Shown in pieces: positions 10,802 to 19,501 of a DNA stretch of 64,000 bases. A model generated the notes under the pieces. That model was not told where the DNA came from and did not search any database. It worked only from the letters and a program-made list of their open reading frames with translations. Source of the stretch: an uncultured Pseudomonadales bacterium (GTDB lineage Bacteria > Pseudomonadota > Gammaproteobacteria > Pseudomonadales > Azotimanducaceae); assembly GCA_958296295.1 (NCBI GenBank), contig OY282460.1, forward strand, positions 434,001-498,000. The letters are read 5' to 3'. How positions within the stretch are numbered: the first letter of the stretch is position 1; every line of letters begins with the position of its first letter. A program made the position numbers and the translations under genes.

Positions 10802-11050
10802 TCCAGTTGCCAGAACCCAAGAAGGGCACGAGCTTCGACCGATCTTCCGGCTGTTTTCGTCAACGATTTCTGGAGCCCGCGACCGCGGCAGCTGTGAACG
10901 AGACCCCTCGTTACGTCCTTGAAGCATGAACCGTCACCGCACAGGCGAACCGCCTAGCGGAATCTCCACATCCCCACGCGGATACGTCCGAATCTGACGC
11001 ATCCACACGGTAAGCTCTCTCCATATCGACACCTCACGACGGAGAAAACC

Positions 11051-13225
11051 ATGCTGACCGGCTATGAACATCGCCTGATCTTCCGCTATCTCGCGAACCT
11101 CGCTTCGTGCCTTCACCACCGGGACCCGGAAGCGAAGGAGTTGGTCGCGTGGGTCGCCTCCAATGGCCGCCGCACGGTGGTCGGAAGCAGACGGAAGGCG
11201 CCCCGGCAGATCGCCGGAATAGGGCGGCGGTCCCGTGCGCTTCCGTCGAACCTGGGCCGCATGCGCCTAGACCTCGATGACCTCCTGGCCCCCGAGCACT
11301 TCAGGGACAACGAAGATGGCGCGAAAGGGCTGACCAGGAAGCAATGGAGCAGCCTCGGAGAGGCCCTGCGGAGCAAGTGTTCCGCGGCGACATCCGTGCG
11401 TGATCCGACGGCGATGCGGCTCCGTTCTCTTGGCAGGGCGACGGGCCTCTCGCGAACGGATGGCGCTATTCTGGAACTCATGCTGCGCTACCAGACGCAG
11501 CCGATCATCGAATCGATGATCGACAGCGTTTTCGAGCAAGTTTCGTACAGGAGCAGCAGCCCCTTCAATGTCAGGGGCACCGCGCTGTCCGCCCTGCTCG
11601 GCGTATCGGGCAATACGATCCTCGCCCGCCTCCGGGCGGATGCGCCTCTCGTGCGGTCGGGGCTCGTGTGCGTCGACGGCGGCGATGGCGAACTCACGGT
11701 GGTCCACCGGCTGCACCGCTTGGCCACCGTTTCCGGCGGCGCGGGGTTCGACGTGAACGGCCTGCTTCTGGGACAGGCATCGCCGAGCGAGCTCGAGTGG
11801 TCGGACTACGACCACCTCGGGCACGACCGCGACCACGTCGAACGGTTGCTCCAAGGTGCCATCGAGACCGGCGCGCCGGGCGTGAACATCCTCCTGTACG
11901 GTCCCCCGGGAACCGGCAAGACCGAGTTCTGCAAGGTGCTGGCGGCACGGCTCGGTGTAACCCTCCACAGCGTCGGGGAAGCGGACGAAGACGGCGACGA
12001 GCCCCACCGCAACCAAAGGCTGCAAGAGCTCCGGCTCGCCCAGCGCCTGATCGCCGGGGGCCGCCGCTCGCTCCTCCTCTTCGATGAAATGGAAGACCTG
12101 CTTTCGGGTTCCGTCGCGGGCTTGGGCATGCTCGGGCAGTTGCTCTCTCCCGGCCCTCGCGGGCCGCGGGCCGGCGGCTCGAAGGTGTTCATGAACCGGC
12201 TGCTGGAGGAAGCGCCGGCGCCGACCCTGTGGACCATCAACGATCCCCGGGCGGTGGACCGCGCCATCCTGCGCCGCATGATGTTCGCCTTGGAGTTGCG
12301 GCTGCCGCCGCCCAAGGTGAGGGCGCGGGTCTGGACGCGGCAGCTTGCCCACCACGGCATCGAGGCGGGGCCGGACGATGCGTTCTCGCTGGCGCGGGAG
12401 TTCGAGGCGACCCCTGGCGTGGCGGCCGGGGCCACCGCCGCGGCGCGGCTCGGTGGCGGCGACCTTGCCGCGGTGCGCCGCGGCGTGCGCAGCCTGTCCC
12501 GGGTGCTGGGCAGCGAAAAGCCGCCGCAGGCGACGCCGGCCCGGTACGACCTCGCGCTCATCCGGGCCGACACCGATCCGGTGAAGCTCGCGGACCGGCT
12601 CGCAAGCAGTGGCGAGCGGCGTTTCTCCCTTTGCCTGCAAGGGCCGCCGGGCACGGGCAAGAGCGCGTTCGTGCGCTACCTTGCCGAGCGCCTCGGCGTG
12701 GAGGTCGTGCAGAAGCGGGCGTCGGATCTGATGTCGATGTGGGTCGGCCAGACCGAGCAGCAGATCGCCGCCGCGTTCGCGGAAGCGCGCGACAGCGGCG
12801 CCTTCCTCGTCTTCGACGAGGCGGATTCGCTGCTCTCGGACCGGCGTTTCGCGCAGCGAAGCTGGGAGATCAGCCAAGTGAACGAGATGCTGACGTGGAT
12901 GGAGAGCCATCCCGCGCCCTTCGCCTGCACGACAAACTACGGCACGCATCTCGATCCGGCGACGCTACGGCGTTTCGTGTTCAAGGTGACGCTGGACTAC
13001 TTGGGGCCGGAGCAGGCGCGAGTGGCGTTCCGGGGCTACTTCGGGCTTGAGCCCCCGGCCGGAGTCGTGGCCCTCACCGTCCTGACCCCCGGCGATTTCG
13101 CGGTGGTACGCAGGAAAGCCGAGGTGCTGGGCTGCCTTGACGACCCGGAAGCGCTCGCCACCATGCTGCGCGCCGAATGCGACGCCAAGCCGGACAGCCC
13201 GCAGACGATCGGTTTTCGGGCGTAG
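11051..13225 (+). CDS. tandem double-AAA ATPase, first gene of a putative defence cassette
   Basis: A 724-residue protein with ATG 11051 preceded by ACGGAG. Residues 1-230 are helical without a recognised domain. Two AAA modules follow. Module 1 has Walker A GPPGTGKT at 284-291, Walker B LLLFDEMED with Asp345-Glu346, and an Arg-rich sensor/finger stretch NDPRAVDRAILRRMMF. Module 2 has Walker A GPPGTGKS at 531-538, Walker B FLVFDEADS with Asp589-Glu590, and DPATLRRFVFKVTLDYL. Both sites look ATPase-competent. It leads a same-strand set followed 185 bases later by a WYL regulator and two nuclease-like genes, so a remodelling or sensing motor in an anti-phage or anti-plasmid system is a fair inference. 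It could also be a general AAA chaperone. Confidence 0.8.
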   Translation: MLTGYEHRLIFRYLANLASCLHHRDPEAKELVAWVASNGRRTVVGSRRKAPRQIAGIGRRSRALPSNLGRMRLDLDDLLAPEHFRDNEDGAKGLTRKQWSSLGEALRSKCSAATSVRDPTAMRLRSLGRATGLSRTDGAILELMLRYQTQPIIESMIDSVFEQVSYRSSSPFNVRGTALSALLGVSGNTILARLRADAPLVRSGLVCVDGGDGELTVVHRLHRLATVSGGAGFDVNGLLLGQASPSELEWSDYDHLGHDRDHVERLLQGAIETGAPGVNILLYGPPGTGKTEFCKVLAARLGVTLHSVGEADEDGDEPHRNQRLQELRLAQRLIAGGRRSLLLFDEMEDLLSGSVAGLGMLGQLLSPGPRGPRAGGSKVFMNRLLEEAPAPTLWTINDPRAVDRAILRRMMFALELRLPPPKVRARVWTRQLAHHGIEAGPDDAFSLAREFEATPGVAAGATAAARLGGGDLAAVRRGVRSLSRVLGSEKPPQATPARYDLALIRADTDPVKLADRLASSGERRFSLCLQGPPGTGKSAFVRYLAERLGVEVVQKRASDLMSMWVGQTEQQIAAAFAEARDSGAFLVFDEADSLLSDRRFAQRSWEISQVNEMLTWMESHPAPFACTTNYGTHLDPATLRRFVFKVTLDYLGPEQARVAFRGYFGLEPPAGVVALTVLTPGDFAVVRRKAEVLGCLDDPEALATMLRAECDAKPDSPQTIGFRA

Positions 13226-13395
13226 GCGGCAATGCTGCGGACGCGAATGCTCCCAGGGGCGGAAGGGGTCTGCGAGGTGCTAGGCCCCACGCTCCAAGGG
13301 TGCCGAAACGCTTCTCTCGCCTGACGTCAGCCCGTTTCGTGGCGTGACATGATGATGCAGGCGACGGTGATCGACGGTCGCAATCGCGAAGGGCG

Positions 13396-13402
13396 AAGGA
13401 GG
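13396..13402 (+). promoter_or_regulatory. strong ribosome binding site for the WYL gene
   Basis: AAGGAGG lies eight bases before ATG 13411, close to the ideal Shine-Dalgarno sequence. It fixes the start and suggests efficient independent translation of the regulator. Confidence 0.7.
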
Positions 13403-13410
13403 GCGACAGG

Positions 13411-14427
13411 ATGCGCTACGAAGGCCTGAAGGACATCTTGGACTTGGCCGTTCGCCTCCAAGGCGCATACGGCGGGTTGACGCTGGACGACATCCAAGCC
13501 GAATTTTCGATCAGCCGGCGCACTGCCGAGCGGCGGCGGGATGCCGTCGAGGCGGCCTTCGGGCCGCTGGAATGCTTGGATCAGGGCGACGGGAAGCGGC
13601 ATTGGCGGTTGCGTTCGGACGCCTTGCGCCGGCTCGTCTCCGTCTCGGCGGAAGAACTGGTGGGGCTCGAAGCCGCCGCCGCGGCCTTGGACGGGCGCGC
13701 CGGCCTCGGCGAGCGCGCGGCCATGCTCCGCAAGCTGGCCACCAAGCTGCAAGCCACTTTGCGCGCGGATTCGCAGGCGCGGATGGAATCCAAACTCGAA
13801 GTGCTGGTGCAGGCCGAGGGCTTGGCGATGCGCCCCGGCCCGAGCGAGCGCCTCGACCAAGGCCTGCTCGCCCTCCTGCGCGAAGCCATCACCACCTGCC
13901 GGGTGGCCGAGTTCCGCTATTTGGCCCAATCGACGAGGCAGAGTAGCTGGCAGCGGGTTCGGCCCTACGGCCTGCTCTATGGGAACCGCACCCACTTGGT
14001 GGGGAGGAAAGAGCAGGTCGATGAGCCGCGGCTGTGGCGCCTTGCGAACATGAGCGAGGCCCGGATAACCGATGAGGCGTTCGCGCGGGATCCGGCGTTC
14101 GACTTGCAGCGCTACGCAGAGCGTTCGTTCGGCACCTACCAGGAAAAGCCGGTCAACGTGGTGCTGCGCTTTGATGCCAAGGCGGCACGGGATGCCGCGG
14201 CCTTCCGCTTCCATCCGAACCAGAGCGTCGAGAAGAACGAAGACGGCTCGCTGATGGTACGCTTCAAGGCCGGCGGCATTGACGAGATGTGCTGGCACTT
14301 GGTGACGTGGGGCGAGAGCGTGACGGTGGAGAAGCCCGCCCGTCTCCGCCGGCGTCTGACCGCGATGTGCGCGTCGCTCGCGGCGCATCATGGCCTAAAT
14401 GGAGGAGAACTACCGTGTCGAACTTGA
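13411..14427 (+). CDS. WYL-domain transcriptional regulator
   Basis: A 338-residue protein. The N-terminus is a winged helix (LTLDDIQAEFSISRRTAERRRDAVEAAF, residues 25-55), followed by a linker, a WYL domain around residues 160-225 (FRYLAQSTRQSSWQRVRPYGLLYGNRTHLVGR) and a C-terminal WCX-like extension. WYL regulators bind nucleic-acid or nucleotide ligands and commonly control CRISPR, BREX and other defence loci. This one sits between an AAA ATPase and two nuclease-like genes. It overlaps the next gene by 13 bases, implying translational coupling. It probably represses or activates the cassette in response to infection (inference). Confidence 0.88.
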   Translation: MRYEGLKDILDLAVRLQGAYGGLTLDDIQAEFSISRRTAERRRDAVEAAFGPLECLDQGDGKRHWRLRSDALRRLVSVSAEELVGLEAAAAALDGRAGLGERAAMLRKLATKLQATLRADSQARMESKLEVLVQAEGLAMRPGPSERLDQGLLALLREAITTCRVAEFRYLAQSTRQSSWQRVRPYGLLYGNRTHLVGRKEQVDEPRLWRLANMSEARITDEAFARDPAFDLQRYAERSFGTYQEKPVNVVLRFDAKAARDAAAFRFHPNQSVEKNEDGSLMVRFKAGGIDEMCWHLVTWGESVTVEKPARLRRRLTAMCASLAAHHGLNGGELPCRT

Positions 14428-15029
14428 TCGAGTTACTTAAGTCGTTCAATCGAAAGGAACGATTCATTTTGTTGGAAAAGGCACTGGATACGTTCCGGCT
14501 CTCCGACGACTTTAGAAAGGAGCTAGGAGATCACCTCGGGCTTGAAATTCCAGATTGTGCGTATGTTGCGATGGACTATCACATTGGCTGGATCCAGATG
14601 GCTGTTTACCTGGAGAACAACGGTGAAGTGCAGAGGAACTGTATTCCTATCACAGAAAAAATCATAGGAATCAATGACAACCAGCAAGACGTCGATTTGC
14701 TAGTGGCCTTTACGGAGGAATCCGTAACACATCTCGTTCTTATCGAAGCAAAGGCCGACACGCCGTGGGACTATGGCCAGCTAGATGGCAAAGTCAAGAG
14801 ATTACAGAGCATCCCCCAAAGCGACACCCTAAAGTTGTATTTTGTTCTGATGTCTCCGAGACCACTTCCTGATCCTAACCGCATCGAGTGGGAAGCCTGG
14901 ATGAAAAAGGACGGCCATATACCGTATATACAGCTTCCCCTGCCGTCAAATCTTTGCAAGATTACACGTTGGAACAAACGTGAATTGCCAAAGGGAGAAT
15001 ATGAGTATTACAAAATTGAGCCAAGGTAG
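14415..15029 (+). CDS. small PD-(D/E)XK nuclease-like protein, AT-rich
   Basis: A 204-residue protein. GTG 14415 has GGAGGAG seven bases upstream; longer in-frame starts would lie inside the WYL gene. The core QDVDLLVAF (Asp92, Asp94), HLVLIEAKAD (Glu111, Lys113) and downstream YGQLDGKVKRL fit a PD-(D/E)XK nuclease fold with a QxxxY-like helix. The N-terminus (NLIELLKSFNRKERFILLEKAL) resembles proteins whose function is not described. Composition is strikingly AT-rich compared with both neighbours, indicating recent transfer or a different origin within the cassette. It is likely the effector nuclease or a nuclease-fold accessory of the system (inference). Confidence 0.6.
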   Translation: MSNLIELLKSFNRKERFILLEKALDTFRLSDDFRKELGDHLGLEIPDCAYVAMDYHIGWIQMAVYLENNGEVQRNCIPITEKIIGINDNQQDVDLLVAFTEESVTHLVLIEAKADTPWDYGQLDGKVKRLQSIPQSDTLKLYFVLMSPRPLPDPNRIEWEAWMKKDGHIPYIQLPLPSNLCKITRWNKRELPKGEYEYYKIEPR

Positions 15030-15037
15030 AAGAGAAA

Positions 15038-16528
15038 TTGTTGGACTCCCGCCTCTCCAAATCCTCCTACCAGAACGGCAAGCAGTGCCATCTGCGCCTT
15101 TGGCACCACTTCCACGCCCGCGATCTCGCTACCCCGGACGACGACGCCAAGCAGCTCGTCTTCGACACCGGCCACGAAGTGGGCGAGCTTGCCTGCAAGC
15201 GCTACCCCGGCGGGTATTCAATCGCGCACGATCACAAGCATCAGCAGGAGGCGCTCGAAGAGACGCGGCGGGTCGTTGATGCGGCCACGGCGCCAGCGCT
15301 CTTTGAGGCGGCGTTTGAGCATGAGCATGTCTTCGTCCGGGCCGATGTGCTCGAACGCCTGCCGGAAGGTGGTTGGCGGTTGGTGGAGGTGAAGTCCACC
15401 GCCAATCTCAAGGACGTCTTCGTACCGGACGTCGGCGTGCAGCTATGGGTGCTGCGCGGCGCCGGCTTGGATGTGCGGGAGGCCGGGGTGCTCACCTTGG
15501 ACCGGGATTATGTCTACGATGGCGTCCAGCTGGATGTGAACGCCCTGTTCAAGCTGCATCCCGTCCTCGATAAAGCCACATTACTGTTGAAGGACATCGG
15601 CGGGGAAACGCGGGAAATGCGGGCCATGCTCGCCCAATCGGAAGCGCCCGCCATCGCCGCCGGCAAACAGTGCGTCAAGCCCTACCCTTGCCCGTACTAC
15701 GCGCACTGCACCCGCGACCTGCCCCGGCCGGCCCACGGCATTGGCGAGTTGCCGTCGCTTAGCAAGACCAAGCGCCGCAAGTTGGACGAGGCCGGCATCG
15801 ACGAAATCAAAGACATCCCAGACAGTTTTGCCCTCAACCATCTGCACCAGATCGTGCGCACCGCGGTGCTGCAAGGGCGCATCCAAATACACGGCAATCT
15901 GCGGGAAGCGCTGGCCGCCATCAAGCCGCCGGTGCGCCACTTGGATTTCGAGACTTTCGCCCCGGCCATCCCTCGCTTCGCCGGCACCCGGCCCTATGGC
16001 ACTATCCCCTTCCTGTTCTCCGTACATACGGAGCACGACGGGCAGCCGCCCGCCCATGCGGACTATCTGCACGAAGGGGACGACGACCCGCGCCCCATGT
16101 TCGCCGAACGCCTGCTGGACGCCCTTGGCGAAGAAGGAGCCATCTGCGTCTACTCACCCTACGAGGCGCGAATGCTGCGGGAACTGGCGGCGGCGGTTCC
16201 GCGGCGGGCGAAAGCGCTTGCCGGTATTGAAGCGCGGCTTTTCGACTTGCTGCCGGTGGTGCGCAACTGCTGCTACCACCCGGATTTCCGCGGCTCCTTT
16301 TCCCTCAAGAGCGTGCTGCCGGCCCTCGCGCCGGGCCTAGGTTACGACGACTTGGCCATAGCCGATGGCCAGATGGCCGCCGCCCTCTACCAGCGCGCCC
16401 TCGCCGACGACAACTTGGCGGAGCGCCAACAAACCTTCGCGGCGCTGCGCGCCTATTGCAAACGGGATACTTTGGCGACGCTGGAGTTGCGCAGAGCGCT
16501 GACCGCATTGGCCCTCCCCGCCGTTTGA
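15038..16528 (+). CDS. DUF2779 protein: Cas4-like Fe-S nuclease fused to DEDD-type exonuclease domain
   Basis: A 496-residue protein starting at TTG 15038 (or TTG 15041), just before the family-typical SKSSYQNGKQCHLRLW. The N-terminal half is a RecB/Cas4-like nuclease: VFVRADVLERL (Asp103) and RLVEVKSTANLKD (Glu117, Lys119), with four cysteines (Cys17, Cys212, Cys218, Cys224) spaced as in Cas4/AddB iron-sulfur nucleases. The C-terminal DUF2779 half has RHLDFETFAPAIP (Asp303, Glu305) and a late CKRDTLATLELR, as in DEDD exonucleases. It would process DNA ends. It follows the PD-(D/E)XK gene by eight bases and closes the cassette. DUF2779 proteins also occur alone, so membership in one system is inferred from layout. 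Confidence 0.8.
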   Translation: MLDSRLSKSSYQNGKQCHLRLWHHFHARDLATPDDDAKQLVFDTGHEVGELACKRYPGGYSIAHDHKHQQEALEETRRVVDAATAPALFEAAFEHEHVFVRADVLERLPEGGWRLVEVKSTANLKDVFVPDVGVQLWVLRGAGLDVREAGVLTLDRDYVYDGVQLDVNALFKLHPVLDKATLLLKDIGGETREMRAMLAQSEAPAIAAGKQCVKPYPCPYYAHCTRDLPRPAHGIGELPSLSKTKRRKLDEAGIDEIKDIPDSFALNHLHQIVRTAVLQGRIQIHGNLREALAAIKPPVRHLDFETFAPAIPRFAGTRPYGTIPFLFSVHTEHDGQPPAHADYLHEGDDDPRPMFAERLLDALGEEGAICVYSPYEARMLRELAAAVPRRAKALAGIEARLFDLLPVVRNCCYHPDFRGSFSLKSVLPALAPGLGYDDLAIADGQMAAALYQRALADDNLAERQQTFAALRAYCKRDTLATLELRRALTALALPAV

Positions 16529-16795
16529 CGGCGTGCATGGAGCGCTCGGCGGCGCTGGACTGAGCCCAGTCGAGCCGCTGCAAGCGCTTGCCCGCGGTTG
16601 CGCTGGTCTGTATGGTGGCTCGGTCTTACGCCTTCGCCTCGCAGCCCGCCCAGATCCGCCGCGGGCCGCCATGCGGTGGCGATGGTTTAGCGTTCCGGGA
16701 GGGCTACCGATGCTTGGGCAGGAGCAGCCGATGCTATGGCCGGGCAGTCGGTCAGCCGGTCTCAACCGTCGCGGCGCAAGCGGGTTCTAGCGTCT
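16529..16795. other. gap between accessory cassette and nuoG
   Basis: These 267 bases hold no recognisable gene and no trace of nuoF, which normally precedes nuoG. No strong Shine-Dalgarno or terminator was seen. This is the likely junction between the acquired cassette and the complex I operon. Confidence 0.5.
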
Positions 16796-19501
16796 ATGGC
16801 CCGCGTCAACATCGACGGCAAGGATTACGAACTCGAAGCCGGGCAGAACCTGCTGCACGCCTGTCTTTCCGAACGGCTGGACCTCCCGTACTTCTGCTGG
16901 CACCCGGCGATGGGGTCGGTGGGGTCTTGCCGGTTGTGCGCCATCGTCGAATACGCGGACGAAGGCGACCAGCGCGGGCGCCTGCAAATGGCCTGCACGC
17001 TGGCGGCCAGGCCAAACATGCGCATTTCCATCCAAGCGCCGTTCGCGGCGGATTTCCGCAAGCAGGTCATCGAGTGGCTCATGGAGAACCACCCGCACGA
17101 TTGCCCGGTTTGCGAGGAAGGCGGCGAGTGCCACCTGCAGGATATGACCGTCATGACCGGCCACTCCATGCGCCGGTACGCGGGGGCCAAGCGCACATGG
17201 CGCAATCAATACCTCGGCCCTTTCGTCGGCCACGAGATGAACCGCTGCATCACCTGCTACCGCTGCGTGCGCTTCTACCGCGACTACGCCGGGGGTGAGG
17301 ATCTCGAAGCCTACGGCTCGCGGGCGCGGATGTTCTTCGGGCGGCAAGATGACGGCGTGCTCGAAAGCGAGTTCGCGGGCAATCTGGTGGAGGTCTGCCC
17401 CACCGGCGTGTTCACGGACAAACCGTTCTCCAAGGTCTACACGCGCAAATGGGATCTGCAGTCCGCGCCCTCCGTCTGCCCGCACTGCGCGGTGGGTTGC
17501 AACACCTTCCCCGCCGAGCGCTACGGGGTGCTCAAGCGCGTCACCAACAGGTATCACGGCGAAGTGAACGGTTACTTTTTGTGTGACCGGGGGCGTTTTG
17601 GGTCGCATTTCGTGAACCACGAGAAGCGCGTCCGCCACGCCGGTGTGCGCGGCGCCGACGGCGTGTTCGAGGCCAATGGCGCGGAGGCCGCGCTGGCGAA
17701 TGTGGCGGCGCGTTGCGCGGGTGCCTTGGTGGGCATCGGTTCCCCGCGCGCCTCGCTGGAGGCCAACTTCGCGCTGAAACAACTGGTGGGCGAGGAGAAC
17801 TACTGCCCCGGCGTCGCGGACGACGAGCACGAGACGTTGCGGGCGGCGCTTGAGATATACCGCAAGGGCGGCTTCCGGGTGCCCTCGGTGACGGATGTGG
17901 AGCGCGCCGACGCGGTGTTGATTCTCGGCGAGGACATCACCGCCACCGCCGCCCGCGTCGCGCTGGCGGTGCGCCAGGCGGTGCGTGGCGTCGCGTTCGA
18001 CATGGCGCGGGAGGCGGGAATCCCCGAATGGCAGGACGCCGGTGTGCGCGGCCACGGACAGGCGGCGCAAAGCCCGCTGTTCGTCGCCACCGCCACGCCC
18101 ACGCGCATTGACGAATTGGCCACCGCCACGCGGCGCGGGGCCGCGAACGATCTCGCCGGCGCCGGCTTCGGCATCGCCCACGCCATCGAGCCGAGCTTCG
18201 CTTCCGGCACGCAGGACGATTTCACCGCGGCGGCGGCGAAAGCGCTGGCCGCCGCCGAGCGTCCGCTGGTGATCACGGGCTGCGAAGCGCGTTCCCCGGC
18301 GTTGCTGCGCGCCGCCGCGAATGTGGTTTGGGCGTTGCGGAAGCAAAACAAGAAAGCGGCGCTCGTCATCGCGGCATCCGAGGCGAACAGCTACGGCGTG
18401 GCCCTGCTTGGGGGCGGGCTTAACCTGGCGGCGGCGCTCCTTCGCATGCGGGAAGGCGAGCCGGCGCTCGTGCTGGAGAACGATCTCTTTCGGCGTGTAC
18501 CCGCCGGGGACATAGACCTCGCACATGCGGTGGTGTTGGATTCGCTGGAAACGCCCACCGCGGAAGGCGCGGCGGTGGTGCTCCCCGCCGCCACATACGC
18601 CGAGCAGACCGGCACCTTTGTCAACTACGAAACGCGGGCGCAGCGGTTCTACCAGGTGTTCGAGCCGGCCGGCGAAGTCGCGCCGTCCTGGCGGTGGCTG
18701 GCGGAAATCGGCAAGCGCCGCGAACGCGCCGCGGATTGGCCCAACATCGATGCGTTAACCGCAGCCTGCGCAAACGGCACCGAAGGTTTGCGCCGATTGA
18801 CGACTCTTGCGCCGGAAGCGGGGTTCCGCGCCCGCGCCAACACGCGCATTCCGCGTCAACCCCAGCGCTACAGCGGGCGCACGGCCATGCTCGCGAACGT
18901 GAGCGTTCACGAACCGAAGGCGCCGGTCGATGCGGAAACGCCGCTCGCCTATTCGATGGAGGGCGAGAACGCCGGCGACCAGCCTGGTGCCGTGGTGCCT
19001 TACGTCTGGTCGCCGGGCTGGAACTCCAACCAATCCGTGTTCAAGTTTCAGCAGGAGGTGGGCGGGCCGCTGGCGGGCGGAGACCCGGGCGTGCGTTTGC
19101 TCGACGACGAATCGGGCTCGCCGGCCAGCTACGGCGAACCGCCGGCAACGGAGCAGCGCAACGGAACGTTCTTGGCCGCGCGCGTTCACGACGTGTTCGG
19201 CAGCGACGAACTCGCCGGCTACTCCGCGCCGATATTGGAACGCGCGCCGGCACCGTACTGCATCCTGAACCCGGACGACGCCCGCGAACTGGGCGTTGCG
19301 GACGGGGGCGGCGTGCGTATTGAGGAGCTGGATGCCAGCGTCCAGGTGCGGGTGGATGCCGACGTCCCGGCGGGTTTGGTCGCCGTCGCCCAGGGGTTGC
19401 CCGGTGGGCCGTTGCTGACCAGCCACCGTGTGCGCCTTGCGGCGGATGCGGATTTCACGCCGCGGTCGGGCGGCGACCCGAACGTCATCGCCAAGGGCTG
19501 A
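16796..19501 (+). CDS. nuoG: NADH-quinone oxidoreductase subunit G
   Basis: A 901-residue complex I peripheral-arm subunit carrying the electron-transfer iron-sulfur chain. ATG 16796 begins the [2Fe-2S] domain (MARVNIDGKDYELEAGQ). Cluster ligands: PYFCWH...GSCRLCAI...QMACT for N1b; HPHDCPVCEEGGECHLQDM (His plus three Cys); NRCITCYRCVRF...EVCPTG; and a PSVCPHCAVGCN...FLCDRGR set matching the extra N7 cluster. The C-terminus is a molybdopterin-oxidoreductase-like domain without obvious cofactor function. It overlaps nothing upstream and is four bases from nuoH. It is the first nuo gene here, which is unusual because NuoF normally precedes it. Confidence 0.95.
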   Translation: MARVNIDGKDYELEAGQNLLHACLSERLDLPYFCWHPAMGSVGSCRLCAIVEYADEGDQRGRLQMACTLAARPNMRISIQAPFAADFRKQVIEWLMENHPHDCPVCEEGGECHLQDMTVMTGHSMRRYAGAKRTWRNQYLGPFVGHEMNRCITCYRCVRFYRDYAGGEDLEAYGSRARMFFGRQDDGVLESEFAGNLVEVCPTGVFTDKPFSKVYTRKWDLQSAPSVCPHCAVGCNTFPAERYGVLKRVTNRYHGEVNGYFLCDRGRFGSHFVNHEKRVRHAGVRGADGVFEANGAEAALANVAARCAGALVGIGSPRASLEANFALKQLVGEENYCPGVADDEHETLRAALEIYRKGGFRVPSVTDVERADAVLILGEDITATAARVALAVRQAVRGVAFDMAREAGIPEWQDAGVRGHGQAAQSPLFVATATPTRIDELATATRRGAANDLAGAGFGIAHAIEPSFASGTQDDFTAAAAKALAAAERPLVITGCEARSPALLRAAANVVWALRKQNKKAALVIAASEANSYGVALLGGGLNLAAALLRMREGEPALVLENDLFRRVPAGDIDLAHAVVLDSLETPTAEGAAVVLPAATYAEQTGTFVNYETRAQRFYQVFEPAGEVAPSWRWLAEIGKRRERAADWPNIDALTAACANGTEGLRRLTTLAPEAGFRARANTRIPRQPQRYSGRTAMLANVSVHEPKAPVDAETPLAYSMEGENAGDQPGAVVPYVWSPGWNSNQSVFKFQQEVGGPLAGGDPGVRLLDDESGSPASYGEPPATEQRNGTFLAARVHDVFGSDELAGYSAPILERAPAPYCILNPDDARELGVADGGGVRIEELDASVQVRVDADVPAGLVAVAQGLPGGPLLTSHRVRLAADADFTPRSGGDPNVIAKG

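Follow-up and report, generated by a model that had tools for sequence, protein, structure and literature searches.

A DriD-like WYL regulator and its predicted operator mark a modular AAA ATPase cassette with exchangeable predicted nucleases

INTRODUCTION

DriD of Caulobacter is a WYL-domain regulator that is switched on by single-stranded DNA (ssDNA) and activates SOS-independent damage genes. It binds the pseudo-palindrome ATACGAC-N7-GTCGTAT, which has its center at the -35 region and a constant spacing to the -10 box, its published targets include recJ and dnaG, and in Caulobacter it activates bapE, an endonuclease with an apoptosis-like outcome (PMC12340889). Here, we describe a cassette of four genes, encoding a tandem AAA ATPase (AAA), a WYL regulator (WYL), a small predicted PD-(D/E)XK nuclease (PDD), and a DUF2779 protein, in a stretch of 64,000 nucleotides (the window; contig OY282460.1 of assembly GCA_958296295.1, positions 434,001 to 498,000 of the forward strand) from an uncultured Pseudomonadales bacterium. 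We put at roughly 0.5 the probability that these genes are one version of a modular cassette, switched by a DriD-like WYL regulator, that serves anti-phage or plasmid defense with swappable predicted nucleases.

Other described systems share parts of this layout. ARG-centric systems combine an ADP-ribosylglycohydrolase with a WYL or Nudix regulator, a phosphatase, and restriction-endonuclease-fold genes (PMC9503650), and ADP-ribosylglycohydrolase genes recur at AAA loci related to the window (phosphatase-fused in locus L105), some of which also carry ARPP-1, REase-ARP, or a helicase. The section of that paper examined here does not mention an AAA gene, and neither the cassette itself nor its direct neighbors, two genes upstream and nuoG downstream, were found to encode an ADP-ribosylglycohydrolase, which sets the window apart from these systems. 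BrxR-type WYL regulators likewise stand near defense genes but repress their operons, as described in PMC9122601, whereas the operator geometry in the window matches that of the activator DriD. The two-domain architecture of DUF2779/Cas4-like nucleases (PMC3985635) recurs in the window protein together with the catalytic residues; the family is therefore a known one, but its AAA-WYL operator-linked setting was not found in the open literature searched, nor was any paper on the AAA-WYL cassette, with most subscription papers lying outside the reach of that search.

In PADLOC (E ≤ 1), the AAA protein matched IetA (92 bits), TRIP13 (43 bits), which is an accessory ATPase of CBASS, and weaker models, all of them ATPase modules. 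WYL matched CRISPR-associated WYL models and the WYL part of Cas3c, and the DUF2779 protein matched Cas4 at 0.017. No set of PADLOC matches makes up BREX, DISARM, Zorya, CBASS, or Hachiman, and no complete known system was found, which bears out a first-pass annotation of this DNA, made from the letters alone, that had seen no match to these five. For the second AAA domain, IetA profiles give the best match in both PADLOC and NCBIfam, which likens the window to IetAS, a pair of the AAA ATPase IetA and the protease IetS. The window AAA protein, in contrast, has two AAA domains, no protease is found among the four cassette proteins (Pfam), and membership was rejected at 92.2 bits against an equivalog cut-off of 510 (NCBIfam NF042959).

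RESULTS

A palindromic operator and a -10 box precede the AAA genes

In the conserved unit, the gene of a p97-like double-AAA ATPase stands behind a palindromic operator-promoter and is accompanied by WYL, and the nucleases are variable cargo. For comparison, 79 loci were fetched by AAA similarity from the best 80 of 235, so that close relatives are favored among them, and gene families were counted with stop-to-stop open reading frames (ORFs) and HMMs because gene calls in high-GC DNA gave spurious antisense ORFs (family c8 is the reverse strand of WYL). In 60 of the 79 loci, WYL lies at most 3.5 kb from AAA, as it does in 5/16 cases of the class sample and in 9/14 on plasmids.

Strict operator half-sites stand before 50 of 66 AAA genes, the window included, where shuffles expect 0.3, and random stretches gave 6 strict half-site matches in 347 kb. 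After the operator, TA occurs at exactly +9/+10 in 46 of the 50 sites and T at +14 in 47; with near-identical sites removed, TA at +9/+10 is kept in 31/35. This fixed offset would place the operator at about -41 to -21, and a site over the -35 region at a set distance from the -10 box is the arrangement published for DriD (PMC12340889). Both the window operator, ATACGTC-N7-GACGCAT, and the 50-site consensus resemble the pseudo-palindrome published there, and binding by WYL is predicted.

The window operator is an exact match and the sole site in its own 4.33-Mb genome; it is the exactness that is telling and not the count, because a backward control pattern gave 5 matches at up to 2 mismatches. 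When operator and -10 box were searched together, with at most one mismatch, in 50 genomes (217 Mb), 45 sites were found against 0 for the backward pattern. Thirty of the 45 fall within 300 nt upstream of AAA, and these are not independent since the pattern was derived from loci of the same genomes.

Two operator types occur, ATRCGWC-N7-GACGYAT and ATGCGAC-N7-GTCGCAT, and the type tracks the WYL subfamily (35/36 versus 9/9; Fisher, 1e-8). This count covers the 45 of 66 regions with an assignment for operator and WYL alike. The other 21 lack an assigned operator or WYL type and were left out; the window is one of them, entered as "no WYL" because the table of WYL seeds predates its addition. 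Some of the agreement may stem from shared descent.

WYL resembles DriD over its whole length

WYL carries the Pfam domains WCX and WYL and has the layout of DriD-type chains from end to end, with a winged helix-turn-helix (wHTH), a three-helix bundle, WYL, and WCX. Its residues 1 to 319 of 338 align with the chains of PDB entries 9pfq/8tp8 (phmmer, E 2e-60, 207 bits), which the PDB lists as a WYL domain-containing protein and DeoR-family regulator without the name DriD and which we take to be Caulobacter DriD. The identification rests on the DriD residues G18, S19, A20, S118, R120 to R122, P125, and E128, as named in PMC12340889, sitting at the same positions in the PDB chain.

The similarity includes a closely similar wHTH stretch, RRTAERxRDAVxAAF, and extends to the DNA: the DriD site and the one predicted for WYL are both palindromes with a 7-bp spacer, and each covers the -35 region with a constant spacing to the -10 box. 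WYL is thus probably a DriD-like regulator, with DriD as its closest solved relative. It differs from Caulobacter DriD in that its gene has a p97-like AAA gene and nuclease genes as neighbors, the residues contacting RNA polymerase are only partly kept, and binding of ssDNA is a prediction.

The AAA protein is more likely an unfoldase than a DNA motor

Pfam AAA matches the protein in two stretches (111.6 bits), and Walker A and B of both modules, seen intact by the first-pass annotation, are invariant across 22 aligned sequences, the window included. The best solved-structure profile matches in the PDB are NVL, VCP/p97, Rix7, and AFG2, all of them protein-remodelling hexamers, and Foldseek returned the same group from a predicted fold whose model is weak (pLDDT 67, pTM 0.52). 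The second module contains the stretch SMWVGQTE, which we take to be similar to the substrate-gripping pore loop of protein-remodelling machines and in which W564 is nearly invariant in the 22-sequence alignment. Because of this resemblance to the p97/NVL remodelers, the AAA protein is more likely a protein unfoldase than a DNA motor, judged from the PDB profiles and the Foldseek result with its weak model.

The family is patchy, occurring in 15/274 genomes of the class and 28/398 of the phylum. On mobile records, it was found in 18 of 72,556 plasmids, in 1 of 50,697 phage records, and as 5 long matches among 38 viral-contig matches. A housekeeping role for AAA, which would have spoken against a defense system, does not fit this distribution.

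The two predicted nucleases keep their catalytic residues

In PDD, D92, D94, E111, and K113 are invariant in 25 sequences, the window included. PDD has no significant Pfam match and no PADLOC match (E ≤ 1), and no solved relative of PDD or of the DUF2779 protein was found by sequence up to E 1; a fold comparison of PDD, which covers Foldseek's own candidates, excluded no family. The DUF2779 protein matches PF11074 with 118.6 bits against a cut-off of 23.3. Its residues C17, C212, C218, C224, D103, E117, K119, D303, and E305 are kept in 28 to 29 of 29 rows; in a few cases, two rows stand for the same gene. Y473 (28/29) and D477 (27/29) are likewise conserved and resemble the third motif of DEDDy-type exonucleases. 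The catalytic residues that had been listed for both nucleases therefore stand.

A second, more distant DUF2779 gene is present in the same genome (G000:C1:2080599-2080964; L144), where the 20 kb fetched contain neither an AAA or WYL match nor an operator match.

The nuclease genes co-locate with AAA above chance

A recognized nuclease family lies within 6 kb of AAA in 30 of the 79 loci and in 18 of the 44 with full flanks, compared to none in 18 control stretches, the nuclease families having been seeded from AAA loci. In 50 AAA-carrying genomes, PDD is present in 8 copies (7 genomes) and DUF2779 in 22 copies (20 genomes; 23 matches, two adjacent pieces being merged). Within 12 kb of AAA, start to start, we found 12 of the 22 DUF2779 copies (0.15 expected) and 3 of the 8 PDD copies (0.04 expected), with binomial values of 8e-21 and 9e-6 that are inflated by related loci. 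Four genomes of the class hold both AAA and DUF2779, at most 10 kb apart in 4/4, and in a fifth genome, G234, DUF2779 adjoins an AAA that is split. Among plasmid records, 5 carry both, within about 2 kb of each other in 3. The AAA-DUF2779 link is real but not universal.

All four genes together were found in only 3 of the 79 other AAA loci (L005, L056, and L073). The expectation that the genes stay together is thus borne out for the single nucleases, which co-locate with AAA above chance, and not for the block of four, which we rejected as a general unit; nor do we see the complete, fixed four-gene system of the first-pass annotation, the constant core being operator, AAA, and WYL while the nucleases vary.

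These numbers also bear on accident as an explanation, by which AAA and WYL form a pair behind which PDD and DUF2779 merely landed. PDD is near AAA in as few as 3/79 loci, and the class scan found PDD in its own genome alone (1/274 at 1e-10), as accident would have it. The co-location in the 50 genomes speaks against it, as does L005, in which PDD has an operator copy of its own, and we regard accident as very improbable and already disfavored.

Loci L068 and L069 have the same gene layout and match scores and are binned as Spirochaetaceae and as Deltaproteobacteria. Phylum labels of loci from metagenome-assembled genomes need care since these two likely reflect a binning error or a shared element.

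The cargo varies and the operator marks other genes

Nucleases near AAA include PDDEXK_4, an Mrr-type enzyme, REase-ARP/PDDEXK_13, AddB-like PDDEXK_1, a PLD protein, and DUF2779, together with the small families c17 and c100, which have no Pfam match and were read by eye as PD-(D/E)XK. A GC content more than 8 points below that of AAA is seen in 15/21 of the small nucleases (PDD, c17, PDDEXK_4, and c100), compared to 1/65 for WYL and 0/13 for DUF2779; in the window, PDD is at 46%, the remaining cassette genes at 65 to 69%. Since a low GC content is common among restriction enzymes in general, the difference supports turnover but is no proof of it. The pattern reads as a nuclease slot that turns over quickly while operator, AAA, and WYL stay. 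In L005, c17 occupies the place of PDD behind WYL, and PDD lies apart from the cassette behind an operator with one mismatch. In L163, a DUF2779-WYL pair has a strong operator and no AAA in the 12 kb fetched.

Fifteen of the 45 operator sites are not upstream of AAA. They precede one AAA remnant, one PDD, WYL-ThiF-JAB (two sites), one c17, one c100-like gene with DUF2779 (the c100 match being weak, 18 bits), one HNH gene with c17 and DUF2779, one AbiEi/AbiEii pair (one mismatch, 433 nt off), two unknown proteins, and two short ORFs; the last three lie within 366 nt of a contig end, where the next gene is not readable.

The AbiE pair brings in a further explanation, a damage-triggered suicide module, in which ssDNA would turn on nucleases that cut the host chromosome and thereby kill cells that are infected or damaged beyond rescue. 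Trigger and parts are common to this module and to the defense cassette that we favor; the target differs. DriD drives bapE in Caulobacter (PMC12340889), no methyltransferase or other self-marking enzyme is found among the four cassette proteins (Pfam), and with the AbiE site both would fit suicide. A Cas4-like DUF2779 protein would by analogy act on ends, which would suit DNA clearance rather than killing, and we hold suicide to be improbable, behind the repair role discussed below.

The two unknown proteins behind an exact operator and -10 box (L231 389-1333, 315 amino acids [aa], and L233 4870-5904, 345 aa) are candidate new effectors. In L234 1-6700 (G659:C1:1296301-1303000), a DriD-like WYL gene with ThiF (E1-like) and JAB genes behind it has two copies of operator and -10 box in front, and the set may be a ubiquitin-like conjugation operon that is switched in a similar way. 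L026 has three identical and two similar copies of CTGCGACGCGATCTGTCGCAC before different small genes, around two AAA copies. L003 and L006 carry, between AAA and WYL, genes with repeats of the form DGRRYEGDFVDGK, which we take to be MORN-like.

The AAA-WYL pair occurs on viral contigs and plasmids

All five long viral-contig AAA loci have the operator and a WYL gene (L190 to L194). One viral-contig AAA locus adjoins a phage terminase gene, and another is flanked by type ISP restriction and HerA genes and, at its opposite end, by tail genes of a phage or gene transfer agent. In L191 (248 and 195 aa) and L193 (247 and 204 aa), two genes without a Pfam match lie directly behind WYL. A Sphaerotilus plasmid carries an AAA copy that begins about 2 kb from BREX-2 genes. 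Culturable hosts of plasmid-borne versions of the cassette include Rhodoferax antarcticus and Azospirillum brasilense.

Layout of the window cassette

The features are collected in Table 1. The ORF coordinates give four genes on the same strand with a 13-base overlap between WYL and PDD and an 8-base gap between PDD and DUF2779, just as first described, and AAA is separated from WYL by 185 bases. The original domain labels hold as well, with AAA, WYL plus WCX, and DUF2779 above their Pfam cut-offs and PDD as the one gene without a significant Pfam match. The operator and -10 box (10982-11016) and the low GC of PDD are features that this description did not contain.

Table 1. Features of the cassette and its promoter region (window positions)
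Feature	Position	Strand	Details and basis
Palindromic operator ATACGTC-N7-GACGCAT, predicted WYL-regulator site	10982-11002	+	Half-sites, genome pattern search, DriD-site likeness
-10-like box TAAGCT	11011-11016	+	8 nt downstream of operator; offset kept across operator sites
Tandem AAA ATPase (AAA)	11051-13225	+	ATG, 724 aa; p97/NVL-like, both Walker A/B sets intact; Pfam, alignment, PDB profiles
DriD-like WYL transcription regulator (wHTH, WYL, WCX)	13411-14427	+	ATG, 338 aa; Pfam, phmmer to PDB
PDD, small predicted PD-(D/E)XK nuclease	14415-15029	+	GTG, 204 aa, GC 46%
DUF2779 protein, Cas4-like PD-(D/E)XK with four-cysteine set and DEDD-type exonuclease domain	15038-16528	+	TTG, 496 aa; PF11074

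Upstream of the cassette are ilvD-like and luciferase-like genes (by eye) and two genes without a Pfam match; nuoG starts at 16736, directly downstream. An intrinsic promoter/terminator scan of the cassette gave five sites, all on the - strand, with no excess over shuffles. nuoG and further nuo genes (window 16736-19501) adjoin the cassette, and the genome has its best nuoF-family match far off, at 3.71 Mb. The complex I genes therefore appear split, with the cassette at the break.

DISCUSSION

From the DriD comparison and the makeup of the cassette, we infer both the role in defense and the ssDNA trigger, and a sequence of events can be proposed. Phage replication, cleavage, or DNA damage would expose ssDNA, which would bind the WYL dimer and free its DNA-binding domains, and WYL, sitting over the -35 region, would recruit RNA polymerase as DriD does. 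AAA, the regulator, and both nucleases would then be produced. The AAA hexamer may remodel a protein target, whether to load or activate the nucleases or to dismantle a protein that sits on the invading DNA; PDD would cut the DNA, and the DUF2779 protein would enter at the ends and degrade them. A broader proposal is more tentative: an SOS-independent, ssDNA-triggered immune regulon, in which a DriD-type activator and one operator across phyla, plasmids, and prophages would govern a p97-type unfoldase, an exchangeable nuclease, and operator-tagged effectors elsewhere.

Several observations weigh against the defense reading. The role of DriD is DNA damage control and not immunity, as described in PMC12340889, and of the five RNA polymerase contacts named there the window WYL keeps two (R122 and E128; not R120, R121, and P125); DriD Gly18 is also kept, but Ala20 is replaced by Tyr. 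Strict half-sites are lacking in 16 of the 66 AAA upstream regions, and in the window it is a presumption that the AAA promoter also drives WYL, PDD, and DUF2779 beyond the 185-base gap. No recognized nuclease lies within 6 kb in 26 of the 44 well-flanked AAA loci. In the class, 13 of 17 genomes with DUF2779 have no AAA match at 1e-60 (12 when G234 is counted), and 11 of 15 with AAA have no DUF2779. Of the 4 genomes in the phylum scan that carry both genes, only the window's own has them close together; they are 36 kb apart in one of the other three and on different contigs in two. Finally, PADLOC shows no enrichment in the neighborhood of AAA, with 57 families compared to 54 in controls, in a test that took in 141 of 175 neighbor genes of 16 AAA loci (the sample covers 15) and 141 of 301 genes from 18 control stretches, 25 families being shown for each set.

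Much of this would suit a repair module, in which WYL would sense the ssDNA of broken chromosomes and AAA, DUF2779, and AddAB-like partners would repair the ends independently of SOS, with no invader involved. The closest solved relative of WYL is a damage regulator with targets such as recJ and dnaG (PMC12340889), and the nuclease-less loci and the flat PADLOC result are what repair would predict. In 4/79 loci (L013, L014, L028, and L045), AAA-WYL has AddB-like and UvrD-like genes behind it or at its sides, and several AAA-WYL pairs sit among genes that look housekeeping by eye. A repair function accords poorly, however, with an AAA gene that is patchy and found on plasmids and viral contigs, with low-GC, restriction-endonuclease-like cargo that differs between loci, and with an operator that also stands ahead of WYL-ThiF-JAB and close to AbiE genes. 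We consider repair unlikely, though less so than suicide.

It is because of the PADLOC null, the nuclease-less loci, and the damage role of DriD that defense is held at the even odds given at the outset, with repair and suicide kept as rivals. Of the defense system proposed by the first-pass annotation, what stands is that the genes co-locate above chance; defense itself is still inferred, the PADLOC neighborhood is not enriched, and in three of the four phylum genomes the genes are not close.

How bacteria time the expression of dangerous nucleases is an open question, and the sequence here suggests a control logic that can be tested. If the defense reading is true, the DriD damage response would be linked to immunity, and an unfoldase would gain a role in a nuclease system. 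The operator with its -10 box would then serve as a DNA tag by which new effectors could be found by pattern search alone, and bacteria would have a new way of switching immunity on.

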